In this document: piece by piece, positions 2,076-5,622 of the stretch | How positions within the stretch are numbered: position 1 is the first letter of the stretch | Layout of the letters: the number at the start of each line of letters is the position of its first letter | Assembly: GCA_003170995.1 (NCBI GenBank) | Contig: PMXT01000182.1 | Coordinates: forward strand, 1-13,559 | Source of the DNA: Actinomycetota bacterium | Lineage (GTDB): Bacteria > Actinomycetota > Thermoleophilia > Gaiellales > Gaiellaceae | Direction: 5' to 3' | Length of the DNA: 13,559 nucleotides | Translations under genes and position numbers: made by a program | The notes under the pieces: generated by a model | What the model saw: the letters and a program-made list of their open reading frames with translations, nothing else | Told to the model about the DNA's origin: nothing | Databases searched by the model: none

Positions 2076-2444
2076 TCAGTCCTCTCGCTCGGCCTCGGCA
2101 AGCGCCAGCGCCGGCAGCCGGCCACCCAGATCGCGCCCGCCGAGCAGGTGCCAGTGCAGGTGGAAGACCGTCTGACCGGCGCTCGGTCCGACGGTGCAGA
2201 GCACACGGTAGTCCTCGAGGCCGAGAAAGCGGGCCGTCTCGACTATGAACTCGAGCATCCGCAGCGCCTCCTCGGGCGGGAACTCACCGATCTGGCGGAA
2301 GGTGTCGATGTGACGCTCGGGCACGATCAAGACATGCACCTCGGCCTTGGGATTGATGTCCTCGAAGGCGGCGAAACCGTCGGCCCGGAGGATGTGGGAG
2401 CCGCTGCGCACCAGCTCGCAAAAAAGGCAGTCGTTCGGCGTCAT
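2076..2444 (-). CDS. HIT-family (HINT-like) nucleotide hydrolase or transferase
   Basis: Cytoplasmic histidine-triad protein; HINT-type members hydrolyse nucleoside phosphoramidates and related AMP conjugates. It has 122 residues. The N-terminal CLFCELV provides a Cys-x-x-Cys pair (C6, C9) as in zinc-binding HINT proteins. NPKAEVHVLIVPERH is at 31-45, and the catalytic triad HLHWHLLGG is at 95-103, with H97 and H99 in the active positions. Its ATG overlaps the mtaB TGA by four bases (ATGA, 2441-2444), so it is translated in coupling with mtaB. Its own Shine-Dalgarno sequence is weak. Family assignment is secure; the physiological substrate cannot be read from sequence. Confidence 0.95.
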   Translation of the reverse strand: MTPNDCLFCELVRSGSHILRADGFAAFEDINPKAEVHVLIVPERHIDTFRQIGEFPPEEALRMLEFIVETARFLGLEDYRVLCTVGPSAGQTVFHLHWHLLGGRDLGGRLPALALAEAERED

Positions 2445-3643
2445 GATCGTCTCGCTATACCGATTATCCCCTGCTCGGTTACCTTTTTGGCGCGCGCCTG
2501 CAGGAGCTCACCGAGCGGACCGTCGAGGAGCCACGGCGTGTAGTCGCTCGCATATCCGCGTCCTGGCCGATCGATCAAAATGCTTTCCACCACACCGATC
2601 TTGCCACGCCAGCGGCGTAAACAGGCGTTTTTCGAGGATTCACGTAAGCGCGCGGCGCGCTCCTTCTTCACTCCGACCGGCACGTCGTCCTCGCTTTCGG
2701 TCGCTGTTCCCGGGCGCGGAGAGTAGGGAAAGACGTGCACTTTCGTGATTTCGGCGCGCTCGACCAGATCGAGCGTGCGCTGGAAGGCGGCCTCGTCCTC
2801 GCCGGGGAAGCCGGCGATCACATCGCTCGTGAGATTGAAATCTCCGAGCCCCTCGAGCCGGCGCAGGAAGGTGGCGGCGTCGTAGCGGCGCCTCATCGCG
2901 CGCAGAATCCCGTCGTCGCCGGATTGCAGCGGAACGTGCAGGTGCCGGCAGGCCGTGGGCGTCTCGCGGATGGCGGCGACCAGCTCCGGGCTGACGTGAT
3001 TGATCTCGATCGAGGAGAGGCGCAGGCGCTCGAGGCCGGACGTCCTTCCCGCCTCGCGCACCAGCCCGGCGAGCGAGACACCAGCCTTGCTGTCGCGGAA
3101 GCAGCCGAGATTGATTCCGGACAGAACCACCTCCTTGTGCCCCTGCTCGACGCGGCGCCGTATGTCTGCCAGCACTACCTCGGCCGACTTCGAGCGCCCC
3201 GGCCCGCGCACCAGCGGCACGACGCAGTAGCTGCAGCGAAACGAGCAGCCGTCCTGGATCTGGACGAAGGCGCGAACCCGCTTCGGTTTGGGACTCCGAT
3301 CGACCGGATGGCCGGGCCCGAGCATCTCCGCCACGCGCTCGGGCGCCGCGGTTTTCCCCTGCGCCAAGACGATCACGTTCTCGGCCATTCCCGCGAAGGC
3401 GCCCTCGAGGTTGGCGCCGCAGCCGGTCACGTAGACGCGATCGTGCGTACGCGCCGCCTTGGCCACCGCCTGGCGCGACTTCCCGACCGCTTCGCGCGTG
3501 ACACAACAGGTGTTGACGAACGCAATCTCGGCCTCGCCTGGGCGCATCTCCTCGTGCCCGTCTGCGAGCAGCCGCTCGCGGATCTCCTCGCCATCCGAAT
3601 ATGAGACCTTGCAGCCAAGAAAACGGACGGAGAAGGTGGTCAT
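2441..3643 (-). CDS. mtaB: tRNA N6-threonylcarbamoyladenosine (t6A37) methylthiotransferase MtaB
   Basis: Radical-SAM methylthiotransferase that converts t6A37 to ms2t6A37 in ANN-decoding tRNAs, in the cytoplasm. It has 400 residues. The N-terminal cluster cysteines are C11 (FLGCKVS), C46 or C47 (NTCCVT) and C75 (TGCGAN). The radical-SAM motif CSFRCSYC has C133, C137 and C140. HVPLQSGDDGILRAMRRRY is at 236-254, and the C-terminal part (about 340-400) fits a TRAM domain. MtaB is preferred over MiaB or RimO from overall sequence style and its place beside HIT-yqeY. The ATG at 3643 has AGGTGA upstream and begins exactly at the family N-terminus; the open frame up to 3832 adds only low-complexity, non-homologous residues. 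Its first 41 bases are duplicated 233 bp upstream, and its start overlaps the stop of that upstream frame as ATGA. Confidence 0.93.
   Translation of the reverse strand: MTTFSVRFLGCKVSYSDGEEIRERLLADGHEEMRPGEAEIAFVNTCCVTREAVGKSRQAVAKAARTHDRVYVTGCGANLEGAFAGMAENVIVLAQGKTAAPERVAEMLGPGHPVDRSPKPKRVRAFVQIQDGCSFRCSYCVVPLVRGPGRSKSAEVVLADIRRRVEQGHKEVVLSGINLGCFRDSKAGVSLAGLVREAGRTSGLERLRLSSIEINHVSPELVAAIRETPTACRHLHVPLQSGDDGILRAMRRRYDAATFLRRLEGLGDFNLTSDVIAGFPGEDEAAFQRTLDLVERAEITKVHVFPYSPRPGTATESEDDVPVGVKKERAARLRESSKNACLRRWRGKIGVVESILIDRPGRGYASDYTPWLLDGPLGELLQARAKKVTEQGIIGIARRS
3603..3643 (-). repeat. Direct repeat copy A: functional mtaB 5' end
   Basis: Codons 1-13 of mtaB plus two bases. It matches copy B (3836-3876) at 35 of 41 positions in the same orientation, 233 bp apart. 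Similarity stops abruptly after this segment. Confidence 0.9.
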
Positions 3644-3780
3644 GGCTTCACCTGCGAACGAACTACCGACCAATCGGGGGCTTCTCGGGCCTCTGGCGGG
3701 GCGCTGGGTGTGCGGCGCCGTAGGGGATAGTGCGAATAGCACAGACCCGGAGAGCGACGTGCGCTCAGCGGCCCGAGGCG

Positions 3781-3816
3781 GCTCCGGGCGGCCGGCCGCG
3801 CCCGGACGGACGGAGC
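3781..3816. repeat. Strong GC hairpin inside the mtaB leader region
   Basis: CCGGGCG (3784-3790) and CGCCCGG (3799-3805) form a perfect 7-bp stem with an 8-nt loop. The flanking GCTCCG (3781-3786) and CGGAGC (3811-3816) can form a competing stem. It lies between the two mtaB starts and has no T-run on either strand. Confidence 0.5.
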
Positions 3817-3835
3817 TGCCGGCCAGTGGCACGAG

Positions 3836-3876
3836 GAGACCTTGCAGCCGAGAAAGCGGACCGAGAAAGCCGTCAT
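3836..3876 (-). repeat. Direct repeat copy B: duplicated mtaB 5' end
   Basis: Upstream copy of the first 41 bases of mtaB, 35 of 41 identical to 3603-3643. Similarity ends abruptly on the downstream side at 3836 and does not extend upstream of the ATG. Confidence 0.9.
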
Positions 3877-3883
3877 GACTCCA

Positions 3884-3889
3884 ACTTTA
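3884..3889 (-). promoter_or_regulatory. Leaderless-type -10 box before the upstream mtaB start copy
   Basis: TAAAGT on the minus strand, 7 nt before the ATG at 3876. The functional mtaB start at 3643 has no such box, so this is the likely promoter of the mtaB-HIT-yqeY unit. Confidence 0.55.
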
Positions 3890-3917
3890 GGTGACGCTCG
3901 CCCGCGCCGGTCTCAGC

Positions 3918-4430
3918 CTAGGGTGGATCACATCCAGTCGGCAGGTCGTCATTCTGATTCAAGTTCTCAGCCGCGACCGTCATCAGGAAGTAGAGGTCGT
4001 ACTTCGGATGCGGGCTTTTCGAGCTCTCGTCCGGGCCGGGGCTCCACTTGTCGATCTGGAAGCAGAAGAGCCTCCGACCAGGCCGGATAGGGCGATTGAA
4101 TCCGTTCGCGGCGTCCGCTTCGATGCGGCGCCTGTTCGTCACGTTGCACCAGTACCAGAACTCCCCCGTCTTCCCCTGGACGCTGGCGCCGCAGTCTCCC
4201 ACCTCCACCTGTCCTCGAGTTTGGGGGCGGCGATCGAAGTACTCGGTCACGGCTTGCCTGGCCTGCCCGCCGGAGAGCTCGGGATGCAGAATCTGGACCA
4301 CCCAGATCACGAAGGCAGAAGCGACGATTACCGACAGCGCGCAGAGAATGAGGACGATCCACATCCCGCCTCGCGGCCTCTTCCTCGCATTTAGGACGAA
4401 TCGGAGCGGGTGTTTTGGAAGCGATGGCAT
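3918..4430 (-). CDS. Unrecognised membrane-anchored protein with four extracytoplasmic cysteines
   Basis: I do not recognise the family. The 170 residues contain a basic N-terminus (ARKRPR at 15-20), one strong membrane segment at about 23-48, and an outward-facing domain of about 120 residues. That domain has C80, C95, C123 and C167, which could form two disulfides. The N-in, C-out topology follows from the positive charges before the membrane helix. The GDCGASVQGKTGEFWYWCNVT stretch (C80 to T98), with glycine and aromatic residues before the second cysteine, loosely recalls small actinobacterial DUF4333-type domains; I treat that as weak. The ATG at 4430 is preferred because TACGAT ends 8 nt upstream. 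A TTG at 4460 would add 10 residues, and an ATG at 4364 would start at the membrane helix. It lies between dnaJ and mtaB, where rsmE or prmA is often found. Confidence 0.75.
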   Translation of the reverse strand: MPSLPKHPLRFVLNARKRPRGGMWIVLILCALSVIVASAFVIWVVQILHPELSGGQARQAVTEYFDRRPQTRGQVEVGDCGASVQGKTGEFWYWCNVTNRRRIEADAANGFNRPIRPGRRLFCFQIDKWSPGPDESSKSPHPKYDLYFLMTVAAENLNQNDDLPTGCDPP

Positions 4431-4438
4431 GCGGCGCG

Positions 4439-4444
4439 ATCGTA
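4439..4444 (-). promoter_or_regulatory. Leaderless-type -10 box of the unrecognised membrane protein
   Basis: TACGAT on the minus strand, 8 nt before the ATG at 4430. It supports that ATG over the TTG at 4460. Confidence 0.45.
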
Positions 4445-4494
4445 ACAGCCGATGCCGCAACGCCCGCTATGGGCAAATGTCCTCCGTCGTTTAG

Positions 4495-4518
4495 CGAGCT
4501 TCATTTGAAACGAGCTCG
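4495..4518 (-). terminator. Weak hairpin across the dnaJ stop codon
   Basis: CGAGCT (4495-4500) and AGCTCG (4513-4518) flank a 12-nt loop that contains the dnaJ stop codon and can itself pair (TTCA with TGAA). No T-run follows on the minus strand, so termination here is doubtful. Confidence 0.25.
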
Positions 4519-5622
4519 TAAACGCTTGAACAAGCCCTCGTCGTGCTCGTAGGTGGCGGCGGTCGCGCTCTCTTCGAACTGCGCGAGCAGCTTGCGCTGC
4601 TCCTCGTCGAGCTTGCGCGGGATGAGCACGGTCAGAAGCAGGCGCAGGTCGCCGTGGCCAAAGCCTTGCAGGCGCGGCATGCCCTTGCCCTTGAGCGTGA
4701 GCACGGCGCCCGGCTGGGTGCCCGGCTCGATCCCAACCTCGGCCTCACCGTCGAGTGTCGACACGGTCACCTTGCCGCCGAGCGCGGCCTGGGTCATCGT
4801 CAGCTCCAGCGTCGAGACGAGGTCGTCGCCCTCGCGCACGAAGCGTTCGTCGTGGCGCAGACGCACCAGTACGTACACGTCGCCGGCGCGACCGCCGCGG
4901 CTGCCCGCGTGCCCTTTGCCGGAGATCCGGATCGGCTGCCGGTCGTGAATACCGGCCGGGATCTCGACCTCGAGCTTGCGCTCCTCGACCTCTCGGCCGG
5001 AGCCACCACAGTTCTCGCAGGCGTGCTCGATCACCTTGCCGCTGCCGCCGCAGGTCGAGCAGGTCTGGGTGCGCATGATCTGGCCGAAAATGCTCTGCGA
5101 GACCTGCTGGAACATCCCCTGCCCCTTGCAGGTGGGGCAGGTCGTCGGCTCAGTGCCGGGCTTCATGCCGGAGCCCTCGCAGACATCGCAGACGGTCTCG
5201 GCCTCGAACGTGACCTCGCGCTTCACTCCCTCCGCCGCCTCGGCCAGATCGAGCTCGACCTCGGCGGCGATGTCGGCGCCGCGCTGGCGAGTCGGTCGCG
5301 CCGCTCCGGCGCCGAACAATTCGTCGCCAAAGAAGGCCGAGAAGAGATCGGAGAGACTGCCGAAATCGACTCCGGTCGGCTGGTAGCCGCCGCTGCGAAG
5401 TCCCGCGTGACCGAAGCGGTCGTAGAGCTCGCGCGTCTCTGGCTTGGACAACACCTCGTAGGCCTCGACCAGCTGCTTGAAGCGCTCCTCGGCCTCGGGG
5501 TGATCGGAGACGTCGGGATGTAGCTCGCGCGCCAGCGCGCGGAAGGCCTTCTTGATCTCGACCTCACTGGCAGTGCGTGGTACGCCGAGCAGCTCGTAGT
5601 AGTCGCGGTCGGTGCTGGCCAT
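4501..5622 (-). CDS. dnaJ: Molecular chaperone DnaJ (Hsp40)
   Basis: Cytoplasmic co-chaperone that delivers unfolded clients to DnaK and stimulates its ATPase. It has 373 residues, the normal length for a type I DnaJ. J-domain 7-70 with HPD at 35-37; glycine- and phenylalanine-containing linker 71-115. The zinc-binding domain has four CxxCxGxG repeats: CDVCEGSG (145-152), CPTCKGQG (162-169), CSTCGGSG (188-195) and CENCGGSG (202-209). The C-terminal substrate-binding domains include GDVYVLVRLRHDERFVREGDDL (247-268). I chose the ATG at 5622 because family homology begins there; the open frame to 5724 adds unrelated residues. There is no Shine-Dalgarno sequence, but TAACCT ends 7 nt upstream. 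It follows hrcA across a 177-nt spacer with a terminator, so it is probably transcribed separately. Neither dnaK nor grpE is in the window. Confidence 0.97.
   Translation of the reverse strand: MASTDRDYYELLGVPRTASEVEIKKAFRALARELHPDVSDHPEAEERFKQLVEAYEVLSKPETRELYDRFGHAGLRSGGYQPTGVDFGSLSDLFSAFFGDELFGAGAARPTRQRGADIAAEVELDLAEAAEGVKREVTFEAETVCDVCEGSGMKPGTEPTTCPTCKGQGMFQQVSQSIFGQIMRTQTCSTCGGSGKVIEHACENCGGSGREVEERKLEVEIPAGIHDRQPIRISGKGHAGSRGGRAGDVYVLVRLRHDERFVREGDDLVSTLELTMTQAALGGKVTVSTLDGEAEVGIEPGTQPGAVLTLKGKGMPRLQGFGHGDLRLLLTVLIPRKLDEEQRKLLAQFEESATAATYEHDEGLFKRLRARFK

Follow-up and report, generated by a model that had tools for sequence, protein, structure and literature searches.

A diverged second start of mtaB in a Gaiellaceae genome as the probable footprint of a small, structured, dispersed element

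The beginning of mtaB occurs twice in the stretch of DNA analysed here (the window, 13,559 nucleotides of contig PMXT01000182.1 from a member of the Gaiellaceae), and the spacer that separates the two copies, missed in the first-pass annotation, is a dispersed structured element of 152 bp. The mtaB repeat is probably the target duplication produced when this small, non-autonomous element inserted, because the spacer is a dispersed repeat with similar flanking repeats at other sites. The diverged start would thus be explained as the footprint of an element family whose relatives are scattered through related soil bacteria, often exactly at the ends of tRNA genes. The support comes from the conserved fold of the dispersed spacer, from the single, element-free mtaB start of five relatives in the genus and from the comparable repeats elsewhere. 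An insertion that copies its target seems to fit these sequences best, with a mobilising enzyme that is only presumed.

The two mtaB starts and the locus in relatives

The direct repeats at 3603-3643 and 3836-3876 are 233 bp apart and identical at 35 of 41 bases, both read MTxFSVRFLGCKV on the minus strand, and the pair can be extended to 42 of 51 bases (3603-3653 against 3836-3886). The intact downstream start (ATG 3643-3641) is here called copy A and the truncated upstream start (ATG 3876-3874) copy B. Their six differences fall at the third positions of codons 2, 5, 7 and 9 and at the first and third positions of codon 3. The coordinates, spacing, identity and reading frames given in the first-pass annotation were exact on recheck, as was its statement that four of the six differences are silent third-position changes and the other two share a codon. 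It had also assigned the intact gene to the downstream copy, where the mtaB frame indeed starts, and had argued that this is no fresh slip duplication, in agreement with the divergence of the two copies. The local-alignment score of the window flanks, 57, was reached by none of 38 mispaired flanks from the same genome, so the repeat lies beyond chance. The features of the locus are collected in Table 1, in which the outer edge of the left copy (3654) was placed by eye.

Table 1. Features at the mtaB start, in window coordinates
Feature	Coordinates	Strand	Basis
Intact mtaB, 400 codons, the first 14 being copy A	2441..3643	-	ORF and translation; MtaB of relatives aligns from residue 1
Putative left target copy: first 41 nt of mtaB (copy A) and ~11 nt of 5' flank	3603..3654	-	51-nt repeat; alignments to five relatives stop at 3647-3654
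Possible 78-codon leader ORF that opens at the copy B ATG and crosses the element	3640..3876	-	Frame analysis; translation not shown
Linker of ~29 nt, left copy to element	3655..3683	.	Unmatched in the mtaB flank of relatives
Dispersed structured element, 152 bp, terminal stem CTCG..CGAG and two hairpins	3684..3835	+ (strand with conserved fold)	Genome searches, alignment, covariance model, covariation
Putative right target copy, abutting the element directly: copy B, the truncated mtaB start, with its ancestral 5' flank	3836..3887	-	51-nt repeat; alignments of relatives; flank comparison
TAAAGT, -10-like box, before copy B only (7 nt from its ATG)	3884..3889	-	Comparison with relatives
Frame of 180 codons between mtaB and dnaJ	3918-4460	-	ORF list

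Alignment of the locus with related genomes, a check proposed in the first-pass annotation, gave a single mtaB start in all five relatives of the genus, and no element was found at their mtaB loci (1.5 kb scanned on each side, and wider loci in four of them). Copy B with its flank (3834 to 3884-3901) matches this single start, best in G002 (90.6%), and the copy A side matches the relatives only as far as 3647-3654. Across the 41 sites copy B differs from G002 at 2, and copy A differs from G004 and G005 at 3 each and from G002 at 6. The 41-bp ends are ambiguous, as their few sites appear to fit both a local duplication followed by drift and the import of one end. Among the best 120 of 7999 protein matches to the 463-residue frame (86% of which is MtaB alone), none covers more than 90% of it, and the same junction was not seen in an independent assembly; several near MtaB proteins carry the source name Gaiellaceae. 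The stretch between mtaB and dnaJ (window 3890-4500) is itself variable, at about 0.6 kb here and 1.35-2.0 kb in four relatives, with little DNA similarity.

The promoter had been placed with the upstream copy, and comparison with relatives supports this. Of 29 relatives, 28 have a TANNNT motif 4-12 nt ahead of the mtaB start codon (G004 is the exception; the null was 8 of 580 windows), and in the window such a box precedes copy B and is absent before copy A; a scan for the sigma-70 consensus returned no promoters in 3400-4600. The spacing of the motif is as for a leaderless or nearly leaderless mtaB transcript. The TGA of the leader frame (3642-3640) overlaps the ATG of copy A as ATGA, and coupling of such a leader to mtaB is plausible. 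The simplest reading is that ribosomes would read the leader, terminate at the true start codon and reinitiate there, and yet an open frame with a one-in-three frame match could be luck in GC-rich DNA.

The element family, its fold and its sites

A search of the window's own genome with 3550-3950 found 19 further places, 18 of them over the spacer, and a search with 3684-3835 found 19 places in that genome, the window copy included, with matches in all six genomes of the genus. The other copies in the same genome are 71-85% identical to the window copy over the matched stretch. Twenty-seven full-length genus copies could be aligned end to end, and a covariance model built from them gave 117 matches in the six genomes (31, 16, 28, 10, 12 and 20 in G000 to G005), a dispersal in many copies that, at a length of 152 bp, is as in a bacterial MITE. 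Under filters stricter than those of the genus search, the model matched 35 of 121 relatives, all 35 in one family. The analyses of sites used 75 of the 117 genus matches, picked by score and with flanks fetched, and 43 copies from other genera taken from the matches listed under the stricter filters, 118 in total, several of which occupy orthologous sites and hence are not independent. The listed copies have a G+C content of about 72-81%. Shortened elements of about 75-135 bp (e.g., G000:C145:2708-2795 and G005:C79:1554-1688) match the model end to end, as if whole hairpins had gone and the terminal stem had been retained.

Searches by blastn of phages and plasmids gave no match to the window element, and viral contigs had no match to one exact element pattern. 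A known structured RNA family was rejected, as Rfam returned no match for the window in gathering mode, and in E-value mode the best below-threshold match was DnaX, at 16.6 bits against 35 (E 0.28). Word searches brought up no description of the family among the titles and abstracts of open papers that they listed, a reach outside which most subscription journals fall.

In the 27 genus copies the ends of the element pair (CTCG..CGAG) and enclose two large hairpins, which makes a three-way junction. Changes on both sides were seen at 33 of the 52 pairs, and 95.2% of cells are paired. Shuffled alignments averaged 83.4%, with 0 of 500 reaching the observed value, and sliding the partners gave 43.8% at most. 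The terminal helix has double changes at 7 of 9 pairs and 95.9% of its cells paired, and the base-paired ends expected of a MITE are thus present. The 44 copies from other genera that stand outside the model, among the matches listed, have 96.6% of cells paired and 44 of 52 pairs double-changed, with 0 of 500 shuffles as high, on an alignment that was fitted to the model and so is biased towards its fold. The window copy alone folds modestly better than its shuffles (z -2.22, 5 of 200 as good). Because G.U cells exceed A.C cells (125 against 28 in the genus, 223 against 14 in other genera), the comparison suggests that the fold is maintained on the plus strand, as RNA or single-stranded DNA. 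The same excess is seen at pairs with a Watson-Crick majority (52 against 26 and 72 against 13, respectively), the fold having been predicted in the plus orientation, which somewhat favours G.U on that strand. The long stem has a conserved tandem U.G/G.U.

The copies sit at particular borders. In the genus, 31 of 75 copies have their right end within 2 nt of an intact tRNA gene, or overlapping it by up to 3 nt, and all 31 are at the tRNA 3' end in a single orientation; no tRNA gene ends 12 nt or less from the left end of any of the 118 copies. Among the matches listed from other genera, the right end often lies on a start codon: a start at -6 to +15 that opens at least 80 codons accompanies 30 of 43 copies (null 21.5%), an upstream stop within 45 nt of the left end 33 and both together 27, often at fixed offsets. 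The same test in the genus, which covered 67 of the 75 copies as against 43 of 43 elsewhere, gave a start in 7 of 67 (null 13.3%), a stop in 14 and both in 1. At two sites of one such genome (G061), five other genomes have an overlap of the ATGA or GTGA type, with 9-19 bases there against 165-176 in G061.

Other arrangements were also noted. In other genera the element is found between the stop and start of neighbouring genes in 27 of the 43 copies (L145-L184; e.g., L155, L149 and L154), and in G033 a GTG start lies inside the element end. Three copies (L044 in G000:C33, L137 in G005:C26 and L114 in G001:C12) stand beside an apparent 3' half of tRNA-Lys that is broken near the anticodon loop, and aragorn called no tRNA at these half-gene sites. 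A second recurrent sequence (GCACGTTCGAACC...), with parts like a tRNA T-arm, adjoins several elements (L227, L228, L136 and L117).

Flanking repeats were sought by aligning the left 120 nt to the right 100 nt of 115 of the 118 copies, three with short flanks being left out. A score of at least 36 was reached by seven of them, the window included, where 0.65 would be expected (0.56% of 1240 mispaired flanks). These seven strong cases represent six sites with repeats of 22-67 nt: a tRNA-Glu gene in G000 and G002 (64-67 nt), a tRNA-Thr gene (46 nt), a tRNA-like remnant (29 nt, exact), mtaB in the window (51 nt) and two tRNA-Ala genes (22 and 23 nt, both exact). In all seven, the first base of the right copy is base 1-3 beyond the element, and 0-48 nt separate the left copy from the element. 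An eighth case, at a tRNA-Ala gene in G004, has a repeat of 19 nt, a score of 33 and a right copy that starts at base 7. The tRNA-Glu insertion is orthologous in L005 (G000:C126) and L130 (G002:C8). At that site a truncated 5' half retains the promoter on one side, and the whole gene stands on the other, 73-77 nt away; a small remnant is present there in G003 and a partial element in G005, and G004 appears empty, though with a flank of imperfect colinearity.

The remaining 108 of the 115 copies have no strong repeat, and a score of 36 was not reached by any of the 43 copies that other genera contribute among the matches listed; both results count against insertion with target duplication. Decay of the duplicates is assumed for the 108. 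A displaced target copy that has no function may erode, as is suggested by one tRNA-Ala site, the single empty and filled pair that, with the seven strong repeats, was observed for the target duplication of a MITE: G005 runs from the tRNA-Ala directly into AAAGGTTCGAACGTGC, and G002 has, after the tRNA-Ala, a gapped element, a decayed tRNA 3' end and then the same AAAGGTTCGAACGTGC.

Insertion weighed against its alternatives

On the preferred reading, a small non-autonomous element with a three-way-junction fold would have landed close to the 5' end of mtaB, and some 51-54 bp of its target would have been duplicated, namely 14 codons with the ATG and about 11 nt of 5' flank. The left target copy would keep mtaB whole, and the right copy, flush with the right end of the element, would keep the old promoter. 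The two copies would have been identical at the time of insertion and have diverged since. At present the near-leaderless promoter before copy B would drive mtaB by a transcript that crosses the element, and the leader ORF, closing on ATGA, would couple translation to the real start. Several observations count against insertion: the two mtaB starts disagree at 6 of their 41 sites, with copy B closer to G002 (2 differences) than to copy A, the ~29 nt between the flank of copy A and the element are left unexplained, and searches of the six genus genomes for PF00589, PF00078 and PF01797 brought out no mobilising enzyme. By eye, this linker has a weak resemblance to the tRNA-3'-like and other recurrent linkers of many element copies.

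An alternative that appears quite unlikely is site-specific integration by a tyrosine recombinase, with an attachment site that carries its own version of the target, by which the first codons of copy A would be element-borne and copy B would be the displaced resident end. The T-loop and anticodon-loop positions of tRNA genes are used by tyrosine integrases, and the duplicated tRNA pieces do extend to the 3' end from one or the other, with 22-23 nt from the T-loop and 46 nt from the anticodon loop. Copy B and its flank resemble the resident start of G002, and one of 26 scanned integrase loci is near an element (L206 in G001:C9, an element at a tRNA-Phe-like site with a gene for a tyrosine recombinase roughly 0.6 kb away). 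However, the duplications copy whatever the target happens to be (different tRNA-Ala genes, tRNA-Thr, tRNA-Glu and mtaB), which is hard for attachment sites matched in advance. PF00589 has 31 matches across all six genus genomes, and an integrase partner was rejected, as elements were absent within 1.5 kb of 25 of the 26 loci scanned; G003 holds ten element copies with a single PF00589 match in a MAG rated 91% complete. An HUH transposase was rejected as well, with Y1_Tnp (PF01797) at four loci in three of the six genomes, none with an element, so that 1 of the 30 PF00589 and PF01797 loci scanned is near one. The reverse transcriptase family RVT_1 (PF00078) had no match in the six genomes (MAGs rated 77-93% complete), and a SINE-like retroelement was set aside on that result.

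A bolder and rather unlikely proposal is that the element, a three-way junction of one strand, is a mobile RNA or single-stranded DNA that moves via a single-stranded intermediate. Structured gene borders (tRNA 3' ends in one genus, operon stop/start overlaps in sister genera) would guide it, and a target copy would be left beside it. Such an element would be a bacterial counterpart of SINE spread, with host genes surviving as the duplication restores them.

The readings of the first-pass annotation can be judged against the same evidence. Its suggestion of a partial tandem duplication comes nearest the mark, as a duplication it is, though one best seen as the target duplication of an insertion. 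That slippage or recombination duplicated the mtaB start beforehand, with the element entering the spacer later, seems very unlikely. The two copies have diverged, so the duplication is not fresh, as this order of events would have it; but copy B abuts the element with zero bases between, like the right copies at the other repeat sites, and in none of the five genus relatives is the duplication seen on its own. The annotation had favoured a scar of xenologous replacement, in which recombination brought in an mtaB with some 5' flank, the promoter and 14 codons of the resident gene staying behind, and this, too, is highly improbable. Copies A and B do sort with different relatives at a few silent sites. 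Against this, the halves of mtaB, for which identities were computed separately, are 80.6-85.7% identical in DNA to the five relatives with none standing out as a donor, the neighbouring genes are at 79.3-94.6%, and xenology was rejected on these gene-by-gene identities. It would also leave unexplained a dispersed element, with similar flanking duplications elsewhere, at the exact junction. Codon 6 is GTC in copies A and B only, against the five relatives, and the codon-3 replacement sits in copy B; copy A looks native, because the nearest protein found (95% identical) starts MTT as it does. What stands of the earlier account is its description: two copies that are not fresh, with the promoter upstream and the intact gene downstream.

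An assembly chimera at the repeat is extremely unlikely. The repetitive nature of the element would favour it, as would N gaps in 2 of the 118 copies analysed, but an assembler should not be confused by the element, because the other copies in the genome are only 71-85% identical to that of the window. Both sides of the junction are mtaB sequence in the same orientation within a conserved gene order, and the filled tRNA-Glu site is common to two MAGs.

Meaning and comparison with known elements

If inserted in this way, the element can land in a gene without destroying it, by duplicating the part that it cuts off, and a structured insert can come to lie between a promoter and its gene. The docking preferences (tRNA 3' ends in one genus, stop/start overlaps in others), together with the strand-specific fold, make the mobilising mechanism testable.

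SXT integrates in the 5' end of prfC. As in the mtaB case, SXT-type integrative elements targeted to tRNA genes or gene 5' ends have the displaced gene end on their far side and regenerate the gene. Unlike them, the present element has no integrase or cargo in its 152 bp and has many unrelated targets, and membership among integrative elements was rejected on this absence and on the 25 of 26 unlinked PF00589 loci.

Rickettsia palindromic elements, as described in the MITE review PMC10969869, are similar in their length of about 150 bp, in lying within genes that stay functional and in the open frame that runs through them. By the same description they add an in-frame peptide to the host protein, whereas here the duplication would restore the gene and the frame of the element is separate from that of MtaB. 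ERIC, RUP, Correia/NEMIS and other MITEs share with the element a non-autonomous nature, a length of 100-200 bp, many copies, paired ends and a stable fold, as far as they are described in PMC2229807 and PMC10969869. In those descriptions they are mostly A+T-rich, with TA termini and TA-type targets; the present element differs in its high G+C content, its CTCG..CGAG ends in the genus and its three-way junction.

A further likeness is to YPAL or RU-2, the Yersinia palindromic sequence, a 168-bp element with target duplications of variable size (3-26 bp) next to dyads (PMC2229807). By that account small elements with variable duplications beside dyads are already known, and both elements are small, not A+T-rich and without 5'-TA termini. 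The YPAL targets span or adjoin dyad symmetry, and here the repeats of 22-67 nt are at tRNA genes and mtaB. The duplications reach 51-67 nt here as against the 3-26 bp described for YPAL (PMC2229807), and the likeness is one of description. The word tRNA is absent from the main text of PMC2229807 and from that of the review PMC10969869, and precise docking at tRNA 3' ends is, by the description of YPAL in PMC2229807, a feature that sets the present element apart.
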